NCBI GenBank assembly: GCA_017477245.1
Contig: JAFUWY010000018.1
Location: forward strand, 1 to 64,000
Length of the DNA: 64,000 nt
Origin: Bacteroidales bacterium
GTDB taxonomy: Bacteria; Bacteroidota; Bacteroidia; Bacteroidales; UBA932
Reading direction: 5' to 3'
The translations under genes and the position numbers were made by a program. Of the stretch, positions 38,636 through 40,321 are shown in pieces. Positions within the stretch are counted from its first letter, which is position 1; each line of letters opens with the position of its first letter. Below the pieces are notes generated by a model. It was not told where the DNA came from, ran no database searches, and saw only the letters and a list, made by a program, of their open reading frames with translations.

Positions 38636-39069
38636 TGGGGCGCCGCTCCTTCCGTGGGTTTGCCTTGCTGGCCGCGCTGGCCTGCGGGTGGGCGCTGGCC
38701 GGCTGTTCGGAGCCGGACGGATACGAGGTGTTCGTGCGCCGCGATGCGGCCCGGGACGGCGTGTATGTGTATTCGTTGCCGCTGACGGATACCACGGCGG
38801 CTTATGATTTCTGGTTTTACAGCCGGGTGGATAGTCGCCCGGTCGAGAATCTCCAACTCAACGTGCAGTGGCTGGCGCCTTCGGGCAACGGTTTTTCCGA
38901 GACGGTCTACATGCGTCGCGTGGATCCGCGCGGGTCGCGGGAGCTGTACCGTAGCGGGATGGTGCCTGCCGAGGCGGGGGATTGGCAGCTGAGCGTGCGT
39001 CCGGTGGGCGTGGATGCCGGTTTCCAGGGGTTGGGGGTTGTTTGCAAGAGACAAGATGGGACACGATAA
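38635..39069 (+). CDS. gldH: GldH-like lipoprotein
   Basis: A 144-residue lipoprotein with signal FRGFALLAALACGWALAGC (lipobox LAGC). The mature part is beta-rich: VYVYSLPLTDTTAAYDFWFY, LQLNVQWLAPSGNGFSETVY and WQLSVRPVGV, which follow the GldH plan. GldH was named for gliding motility but is also widespread in non-gliding Bacteroidales. The ATG overlaps the RicT stop by one base, and the end overlaps trmB by 14 bases. It is a little shorter than usual, and the call rests partly on gene order. Confidence 0.72.
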   Translation: MGRRSFRGFALLAALACGWALAGCSEPDGYEVFVRRDAARDGVYVYSLPLTDTTAAYDFWFYSRVDSRPVENLQLNVQWLAPSGNGFSETVYMRRVDPRGSRELYRSGMVPAEAGDWQLSVRPVGVDAGFQGLGVVCKRQDGTR

Positions 39070-40225
39070 GCTTCGCAAGTTCGCGGAGAACGAGACGTTC
39101 TCCTGCCTGCTTCAGCCTTCGGCGCAGGAGCTCCTGGCCGACGGTTATTTCAATCTTCGCGATCATGCCGTCAAGGGGCATTGGAATCGGTTTTTCGATT
39201 CCTTGGCGGGGGCAGGGTCTCCCCTGCAGGACTTCGCGCTGCGCGCTCATCCCTCCCAACCTGACGGTTGGGCCCCTCCCGTTCACGAGGCCACGGGCGG
39301 CCACGGTCCTGCAGGGGAGACCCTGCCCCCGCCCGTACAGGAATCGAAAATAGATGATATCGATTCCTGCTCGCGGATTGCTGCCGTTGCCGGTGCCAGG
39401 ACGGATATCGTCCTGGAACTGGGCTGCGGAAAGGGGGAGTACACGATCGCATTGGCGGAGCGGCATCCGGAGCGGGATTATATCGGGGTGGATATCAAGG
39501 GAGCGCGTCTGTGGAAGGGTGCGAAGTATGCGACGGAGCACCGGCTGCCCAACGTGGCGTTCCTGCGGACGCGGGTGGAGTTCATCACGGCGTTCTTCGC
39601 CCCGGGCGAGGTGTCCGAGGTCTGGCTGACCTTCTCGGACCCGCAGTTCCGCAGCGAGAACTCGCGGCTGTCTTCGCCGCTCTTCCTGGAGCGTTACCGC
39701 AGTTTCATGAAGCCCGGCGGCGTCGTCCACCTCAAGACCGATTCGCGTTTCCTGCACGAGTATACCCGCGCCGTCTGCGAACTCAACGGCCTGCGCATCC
39801 TCGCCTGCACGATTGACCTGTACGGGATGTCCGCCGGAGATCAAGCCGACAGGCAGTCCCCTCCCGCGGACTGTGCCACCCTCGGCATCATAAGAGGGGG
39901 GACCGCAAGCGAAGCGCAGCGGTGGGGTCCGGCGCAGCCGGACGTCTGCGGGAGGGGACTGCCTGTCGGCTCTCCGGCAGAGATCCCGGAGGAAGTGCGG
40001 TCGGTGCAGACGTTCTATGAGAAGTTGTTCCTGGAGCAAGGTTACCCGATCACGTACCTGTCGTTCGTGATCGACCACGACGGACCGTACCGCAGTCCGG
40101 TCGAGGCGGGGACCTTCGACACGGACTACTGGCGGAGCGTCGAGGGGCCGCGCCTGCTCTTCGGCCACGACTCCGCCGAGACCCGCCGGCAGAAATTGAA
40201 GGAAGCGGCGGCGCGTGATGAGTAA
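39056..40225 (+). CDS. trmB: tRNA (guanine-N7)-methyltransferase with two in-frame palindromic inserts
   Basis: A 389-residue protein, far longer than the 220-260 usual for TrmB. The family parts are intact: LRKFAENETF and AVKGHWNRFF at the front, the SAM loop VLELGCGKGEYTIAL, FIGVD-type YIGVDIKGARLW, then VWLTFSDPQFRSENSRL and VHLKTDSRFLHEYT, and finally VRSVQTFYEKLFLEQG. Between GHWNRFFDS and the SAM motif lies an insert of about 55 codons made of a long palindrome (39192-39350). Between IDLYG and EEVRSVQTFYE lies a second (39823-39988). Both keep the frame and fall where family members have loops. The enzyme forms m7G46 in tRNA; whether this version is active is open. Confidence 0.9.
   Translation: MGHDKLRKFAENETFSCLLQPSAQELLADGYFNLRDHAVKGHWNRFFDSLAGAGSPLQDFALRAHPSQPDGWAPPVHEATGGHGPAGETLPPPVQESKIDDIDSCSRIAAVAGARTDIVLELGCGKGEYTIALAERHPERDYIGVDIKGARLWKGAKYATEHRLPNVAFLRTRVEFITAFFAPGEVSEVWLTFSDPQFRSENSRLSSPLFLERYRSFMKPGGVVHLKTDSRFLHEYTRAVCELNGLRILACTIDLYGMSAGDQADRQSPPADCATLGIIRGGTASEAQRWGPAQPDVCGRGLPVGSPAEIPEEVRSVQTFYEKLFLEQGYPITYLSFVIDHDGPYRSPVEAGTFDTDYWRSVEGPRLLFGHDSAETRRQKLKEAAARDE
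39192..39350. repeat. long palindromic element in trmB (first)
   Basis: The core arms 39205-39231 and 39307-39333 are perfectly complementary over 27 nt (beginning GGCGGGGGCAGG). Outer arms 39192-39203 and 39339-39350 add a further perfect 12 bp (TTTTCGATTCCT). Inside is a hairpin, CCCAACC-TGAC-GGTTGGG. The 9-mer TCGATTCCT occurs directly repeated at 39195-39203 and 39360-39368. Taking that as a target duplication, the inserted unit is 39204-39359, 156 bp or 52 codons. Confidence 0.9.
39823..39988. repeat. long palindromic element in trmB (second)
   Basis: The core arms 39845-39867 and 39948-39970 are perfectly complementary over 23 nt (starting GCCGACAGGCAG). Outer arms continue through GCCGGAGA/TCTCCGGC (39833-39840 with 39971-39978) and more weakly to 39823 and 39988. 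The interior has a perfect 7-bp hairpin with a GCA loop (GTCCGGC-GCA-GCCGGAC, 39927-39943). The core resembles the first trmB element (GGCAG followed by CCCCT). I found no convincing target duplication. Confidence 0.88.
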
Positions 40226-40250
40226 AATGTTGATAATGAGTAATTAAAGA

Positions 40251-40285
40251 AAATCTCTGGTATCTAAATTAAATACCAGAGATTT
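40251..40285. terminator. bidirectional terminator between trmB and the aldo/keto reductase gene
   Basis: A perfect 13-bp stem (AAATCTCTGGTAT / ATACCAGAGATTT) around a 9-nt AT-rich loop. It lies between two converging genes. The stem is AT-rich and lacks a long U-run, so efficiency is uncertain. Confidence 0.65.
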
Positions 40286-40321
40286 CAGTTTTCGTTGATT
40301 CTCAGCAGGTTGCTGATCACG

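Follow-up and report, generated by a model that had tools for sequence, protein, structure and literature searches.

Two palindromic sequences in frame within one trmB gene, here named E1 and E2, are best explained as instances of a repeated palindrome that is non-autonomous, measures roughly 110–160 bp, has been mobile in evolution, and lives in frame in genes. We give this reading a probability of about 0.8; the figure applies to the element and its residence in frame within genes, whereas the proposed mechanism is less certain. Both copies lie in the window, the 64,000-nt stretch of DNA analyzed, which belongs to a 2.38 Mb genome in 48 contigs whose genus is probably Candidatus Cryptobacteroides. 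A first-pass annotation of this DNA had proposed that E1 is a mobile palindromic element, a proposal borne out by many copies in the genome, in-frame positions in coding DNA, and empty sites in relatives. The conserved core with complementary arms and the opposite orientation of copies at one site are further direct support.

The open reading frame spanning 39014–40225 stays open throughout E1, in agreement with the earlier claim of a palindrome in frame in trmB. E2, absent from that earlier finding although in the same gene, lies in antisense orientation; in an alignment of 50 relatives, trmB is conserved to the left and right of each insert. The arms of E1 are perfectly complementary as annotated, but are 28 nt rather than 27 bp long. 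The further perfect 12-bp match reported outside them was recovered and belongs to a 19-nt, 84% repeat, the right copy of which probably arose later, when the left flank was copied in inverted form. Both copies of the 9-mer TCGATTCCT are likewise present, spaced 165 apart. The E1 strand has a folding energy z of −10 relative to 200 shuffles, with 0/200 shuffles as good. The family covariance model, which was built partly from E1, matches it at E = 1e-19, and across that match two plus and two minus frames are free of stops, consistent with the earlier count of at least two on each strand.

Table 1 Features of the trmB gene and its two palindromic elements in the window.
Feature	Position	Strand	Basis
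trmB (tRNA guanine-N7 methyltransferase); homologous start MGHDK at 39056; E1 and E2 in frame	39056..40225	+	Pfam Methyltransf_4, open frame, 80 related loci
Element E1, site 1 of trmB	39192..39350	+ (sense)	DNA search, covariance model, repeat analysis
E1 outer inverted repeat, left copy; trmB-derived sequence	39192..39203	+	Relatives' loci, repeat analysis
9-mer TCGATTCCT, first copy	39195..39203	+	Repeat analysis
E1 left arm, 28 nt, 100% complementary to right arm	39205..39232	+	Repeat analysis
E1 conserved core, with hairpins A and B followed by helices S1 and S2, which overlap	39231..39307	+	Own-genome HMM, alignment
E1 right arm, 28 nt	39306..39333	+	Repeat analysis
E1 outer inverted repeat, right copy	39339..39350	+	Relatives' loci, repeat analysis
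9-mer TCGATTCCT, second copy; not supported as target-site duplication	39360..39368	+	Flank-repeat test
Element E2, site 2 of trmB	39844..39971	- (antisense)	DNA search, covariance model, repeat analysis
E2 arms, 28 nt, 96%	39844..39871 and 39944..39971	-	Repeat analysis
E2 conserved core	39870..39945	-	Own-genome HMM

Plain DNA searches of the own genome returned other copies of the element. With E1 as the query there were 46 matches at E <= 10, many of them weak, of which three besides E1 itself fell below E 1e-15; E2 gave 19 matches at E <= 1, partly at places also matched by E1. An HMM built from 16 own-genome cores produced 76 hits in the collected loci, corresponding to 43 distinct rows, of which 39 were aligned and four dropped as disrupted or near-duplicate. 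The covariance model made from this 39-row alignment (R1) detects 21 strong and two weak copies in the own genome, with E1 and E2 the only ones in the window. Each element consists of a conserved core of ~77 bp between complementary arms of 20–28 bp that are hypervariable between copies; among 20 own-genome copies mean identity is 0.69 for cores and 0.40 for right arms.

The family is widespread in one genus. In a survey that scored at most 45 candidates per genome, and so gives minimum copy counts, R1 matched 44 of the 49 genomes of this genus, counting the own one, and 1 of 32 others. A draw of 295 Bacteroidales genomes, with 12 candidates scored per genome and negatives accordingly soft, gave five matches: the own genome, G186 from the same family, and G075, G238, and G268 from other families. 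Carriers outside the genus thus number 4 of ~293 other Bacteroidales (the genus count is a reading of the sorted list), and the same-genus genome G093 had no match in this draw. Five copies in G075 (L251, L255, L259, L262, L265) have one left flank common to all, and three of these are at the very start of contigs C10, C13, and C23; in that genome the pattern suggests that the element is part of a larger repeated unit. One exact 29-base pattern searched against viral contigs and one search of phage records returned no match. Among the titles listed from the open-licence literature, none reported such an element in Cryptobacteroides, Bacteroidales, or Bacteroidetes, which is not proof of absence.

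Most copies in the own genome reside within genes. Sixteen of the 21 strong copies are in frame in 13 Pfam-recognized genes, several of whose names are our reading of Pfam families. Genes for an FAD-dependent oxidoreductase, DsbD, DnaX, PolA, TldD/PmbA, an RlmI-like methyltransferase, a YgiQ-type radical SAM protein, an aminotransferase, UvrD, and RsmF carry one copy each, while those for a Xer-type recombinase, SpoU, and TrmB carry two. Pfam matches flank or span the element in eight of the 13 (FAD, PolA, Xer, SpoU, TldD, YgiQ, UvrD, RsmF). Two further strong copies occur in a pair of similar open reading frames that have no Pfam match, and three (L167, L176, L184) lie outside recognized genes. 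The 18 in-gene copies are oriented sense (12) or antisense (6) and use five of the six frames. In the Xer-type recombinase gene (G000:C5:28373-28648) and the SpoU gene (G000:C44:99563-99822) one plus and one minus copy are found together, 40 bp and 28 bp apart, respectively.

From the copies listed for eight other genomes we picked 40; by a codon-usage score, 18 of these lie in frame inside coding DNA (G008 5/5, G015 4/5, G019 4/10, G066 2/5, G016 0/4, G023 1/4, G068 1/6, G071 1/1). This score undercounts, finding 10 of 21 in the own genome versus 16 by Pfam. Most sampled copies nonetheless look intergenic in several other species, and on these per-genome values the intragenic habit is pronounced among close kin of the window and less so elsewhere. 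We dropped a first coding-frame classifier that called 17/61 copies 'in-frame open' against 255/742 random control places, as it was confused by neighboring elements and gene ends. The first-pass annotation had also proposed adaptation to coding DNA. In a set of 61 copies, 3.6 of the six frames are open in the elements versus 3.0 in flanking DNA, which agrees with the idea, but the elements are also richer in G+C (68% versus 59% in flanks) and often intergenic in other genomes, and such adaptation is therefore weakly shown.

Relatives preserve a history of filled and empty sites. Site 1 of trmB, where an empty site was sought, is empty in four loci (L054, L055, L058, L063), while other in-frame inserts there carry the core (L056, L057, L136) or lack it (L059). 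In L056 and L057 the element has the same orientation as E1 and, by eye, no 9-mer repeat. The repeat is therefore probably a later change in the window lineage, arising, for example, through a strand switch that copied the left flank inverted. Common descent of the site-1 elements of the window, L056, and L057 is likely, short of proof. Core identities at this site are 0.95 for window–L057, 0.71 for window–L056, 0.70 for L057–L056, and 0.56 for window–L136, a range compatible with one old insertion followed by replacement or with several insertions.

Site 2 is occupied more often. In 80 trmB loci of relatives (341 kb), R1 made 21 matches, 19 of them inside trmB: 16 at site 2, two at site 1, and one at a third place (L127), with the remaining two just upstream of trmB (L127) and elsewhere (L074). 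R1 was trained partly on these loci; the HMM built from own-genome cores made 19 matches in them, 17 in trmB. Nine of the 16 site-2 copies belong to one clade, in a tree with few columns and many unresolved forks. Within one trmB clade, arms at site 2 differ between copies yet are matched within each copy. Eight site-2 pairs from the clade have cores 0.92–1.0 identical despite identity at host third codon positions of 0.48–0.63 in seven pairs and 0.85 in one, so simple vertical decay is no explanation. The site-2 core may be constrained, refreshed by conversion, or repeatedly newly inserted. Between L121 and L117 the core at site 2 lies in opposite orientation, with arms 0.95/1.0 and core 0.99 identical and the element still in frame; because the arms are palindromic, a flip confined to the core looks the same as one of the entire hairpin. 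Likely remnants of the element were seen by eye in L151 and L088. In L130 an unrelated hairpin is nested in the element core at site 2, where the frame remains open. A second small repeat with a CCCCCTCGAGGGGGCGCAGGGGG end was found at L016:845 and L016:1610 (own genome, C7), L053:1435, and L057:2484, and is in frame in a relative's trmB (L057, site 2).

The polA linker also differs between genomes. The own genome and G008 both have a sense copy there, that of G008 belonging to another subtype; the G090 copy is antisense, and G015 lacks the core (L229). The polA linker of G006 (L224) is expanded by tandem 21-nt GATGTCATTCCGACC-type units and a REP-like hairpin. A further reading is that the element homes to particular conserved linkers, rather than inserting at random and being filtered by selection. 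The concentration of matches in trmB, which makes up ~1/5 of the sequence searched (an ORF-length estimate), was seen with R1 and with the HMM and agrees with homing, as does the occupation of the polA linker in three species with differing orientation or subtype. However, the trmB loci were chosen because the window's trmB is occupied, the nine copies from one clade inflate the count through shared ancestry, and the own-genome copies are spread over 13 different genes. Selection for tolerant linkers would give an identical pattern, and we consider homing unlikely.

Evidence for movement comes from copies in different places. Two copies in different genes, L002 (minus) and L011, have right arms 0.90 and cores 0.97 identical, and subsets of copies within G238 and within G186 have arms in common (by eye). 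Arms and core common to copies in different genes suggest that the hairpin may move as a unit. The first-pass annotation had suggested a possible 9-bp target duplication at E1, which is not supported: L056 and L057 lack the repeat, and a test of flanks 22–80 nt from the core in 39 copies revealed no excess of direct repeats. In that test the longest averaged 5.67 versus 5.58 for mismatched flanks, and repeats >=7 nt occurred in 6/39 copies versus 15.6% of mismatched flanks, although repeats <22 nt from the core would be missed. E1 is the sole copy of the 39 with a flank repeat >=9, a length found in 1.0% of mismatched pairs. Site-specific outer inverted repeats (score >=8) were found in 17/39 copies versus 3.3% of mismatched flanks, part of these being outer arm. 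MITEs such as ERIC, RUP, and Nemis/Correia are described in the cited passages as small, non-autonomous, repeated, and able to form in-frame fusions (PMC2229807), features this element has as well. Unlike several MITEs, which have conserved terminal repeats and target duplications, its center is conserved, its ends vary, and no duplication was detected in the 39 copies.

A transposase partner is another explanation to weigh, in which the copies would be REP/REPIN elements mobilized by a host RAYT-type Y1 transposase. The own genome contains four RAYT-like Y1_Tnp genes (L031, L032, L033, L034), Y1 and element counts correlate across the 49 same-genus genomes (Spearman 0.51, p = 1.7e-4), and the inverted copy pairs in two genes and hairpin units are reminiscent of REPIN/RAYT systems. 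The correlation may, however, stem from how complete each genome is or from its overall burden of mobile elements. According to the portion of the source cited (PMC2817692), REPs always flank RAYT genes, whereas no core copy was found at the four Y1 loci (0/4) in the 1.5 kb to either side (1.3 kb to one side of L034). Each of these genes instead lies near private hairpins of differing sequence. At E <= 0.001 a Y1 match is missing from twelve of the 49 genomes, eight of which hold 1–16 element copies, and the carriers outside the genus have none either (0/4), though a divergent Y1 could fall below threshold. On these grounds a RAYT partner was rejected as a requirement, and mobilization of this kind appears improbable. 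GTAG/CGTC-tagged REPs are described in excerpt as 20–40 bp long, with an unpaired tag, a 5–13 bp stem, and a short loop; CGTC repeats in Bacteroidetes occur without a dedicated transposase, and some REPs lie inside replication and repair genes (PMC3733652). They are similarly palindromic and multi-copy with intragenic cases. Identity with CGTC REPs as so described was nevertheless rejected on alignment inspection: the ~77-bp core and 20–28 bp arms are too long, and CGTC is found in part of the copies, where it is paired.

The core contains two hairpins (A and B) and two helices (S1 and S2) whose overlap makes a pseudoknot or two alternative hairpins. S1 and S2 would hardly both form in full because one base separates them. 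Across the 39 aligned rows, the share of paired cells is 100% for S1 and 87.7% for S2, with 26 and 20 double changes, respectively, although the S2 pair 103-118 is unpaired in 27/38 sequences. For the whole structure (B, S1, S2), four of five covariation measures beat all 500 shuffles, while the fifth, further pair types, was equaled in 100/500; all five beat slid controls. These values are biased toward the structure, since it was drawn from the sequences on which it was tested.

Arms are matched within each copy: a copy's own left and right arms have a median alignment score of 44, versus 14 for mismatched copies (39 copies). Of 715 aligned arm pairs in 36 copies, 691 match, with mismatches divided into G.T (9), A.C (9), and others (6); on the mRNA strand the counts are G.T 10 and A.C 8. 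This set omits 7/43 rows for unknown host strand or disruption, and its local alignments trim ragged ends. With 40-nt flanks included, arm pairing shows 14 G.T and 20 A.C. S1 and S2 together are Watson–Crick in 383/384 pairs (pair 103-118 omitted). RNA-level selection should favor G.T on one strand, and the missing G-U excess in arms, S1, and S2 therefore points to pairing that may be kept mainly at the DNA level. RNA-level pairing of the arms found no support in this mismatch test, with hairpin B pointing the opposite way through some wobble excess (G.T 12 versus A.C 6, pair 65-84 omitted).

Strong covariation, two overlapping helices, a core conserved far above the arms, and the wobble in hairpin B would all fit a conserved functional RNA (riboswitch, ribozyme, or small RNA) that happens to sit in genes. 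Nothing near gathering score was found in Rfam for 38900–40300 of the window or for 14 loci, the best match being MIR918 (E = 6.6e-4, 34 bits versus a gathering score of 268). Copies moreover take both orientations relative to the host gene, the hosts are unrelated, and arms and S1/S2 have no G-U preference, making a functional RNA very improbable. Ordinary fast-evolving linkers, palindromic by chance or by local strand-switch mutation with no mobile unit, would agree with the unrelated hairpins seen by eye in the polA linker of other species, but are refuted for the core, which recurs in other genera and, within one genome, in 13 genes unrelated to each other, leaving this account almost no credence. 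As a description of how the arms evolve, it may well be right. In Nematomorpha mitochondria, coding palindromes are described in the passages cited as keeping complementary arms, with strand switching as the proposed cause (PMC6649704). Matched arms in coding DNA are common to both cases; their arms, as described there, encode conserved protein parts, with no dispersed core mentioned, whereas here one core is dispersed across unrelated genes.

For the mobile element itself, we hypothesize that the spreading form would be a single-stranded DNA folded into a hairpin, and that an enzyme or errors of replication would bring about the spread. Survivors would mostly be frame-keeping insertions in flexible linkers, translated as a linker of about 40–55 residues. 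Strand switching during replication may keep the arms complementary, and could extend the palindrome into flanking host DNA, producing the outer 12-mer of E1. Recombination or strand switching across the arms might invert the core or whole hairpin, and the element would be lost by deletion, leaving short scars.

The closest parallel is the Rickettsia palindromic element (RPE), described in the available text as a long stem-loop of 105–146 or about 150 bp, with tens of copies that lie between genes as well as, in frame, within unrelated ones (PMC10969869, PMC2229807). In Rickettsia gmk, the RPE insert is reported there to be translated and the protein active (PMC2229807). The element described here is likewise a repeated palindrome of ~100–150 bp in one genome, in frame in unrelated protein genes, with insert-free orthologues seen for trmB and polA. 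Relative to RPEs as the cited portions portray them, it occurs in another phylum and combines a conserved center with hypervariable, co-varying arms. RPEs have a conserved encoded peptide (PMC10969869), whereas the 18 in-gene copies, spread over five of six frames and both orientations in one genome, have no single conserved peptide, and close relatives are flipped at one site. RPEs are also reported to lose repeat identity over time (PMC6649704), while arms here remain complementary. The element thus appears to work like an RPE yet be built differently.

What is new relative to known elements is the combination of a conserved center with variable matched arms, both orientations, five frames, same-site flips, and a wide presence in one gut genus. 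A speculative extension, to which we assign less than even odds, is that this is an invertible, orientation-blind coding element whose center is copied or refreshed among sites while diverging arms are re-matched at the DNA level, with trmB and polA linkers repeatedly occupied, flipped, and rewritten across species. If true, the family would keep generating new protein linkers in frame, with DNA structure rather than protein selection as the driver, and would perhaps home to certain linkers. In practical terms, gene models and alignments are disturbed when core genes gain insertions of ~50 residues. Rickettsia is the best-known source of in-frame palindromic elements, and here a large family occurs in gut Bacteroidales across dozens of genomes. 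Filled, empty, flipped, and scarred sites in the housekeeping genes trmB and polA form a natural series, one that makes persistence in coding DNA, arm matching, and the origin of new protein segments testable.
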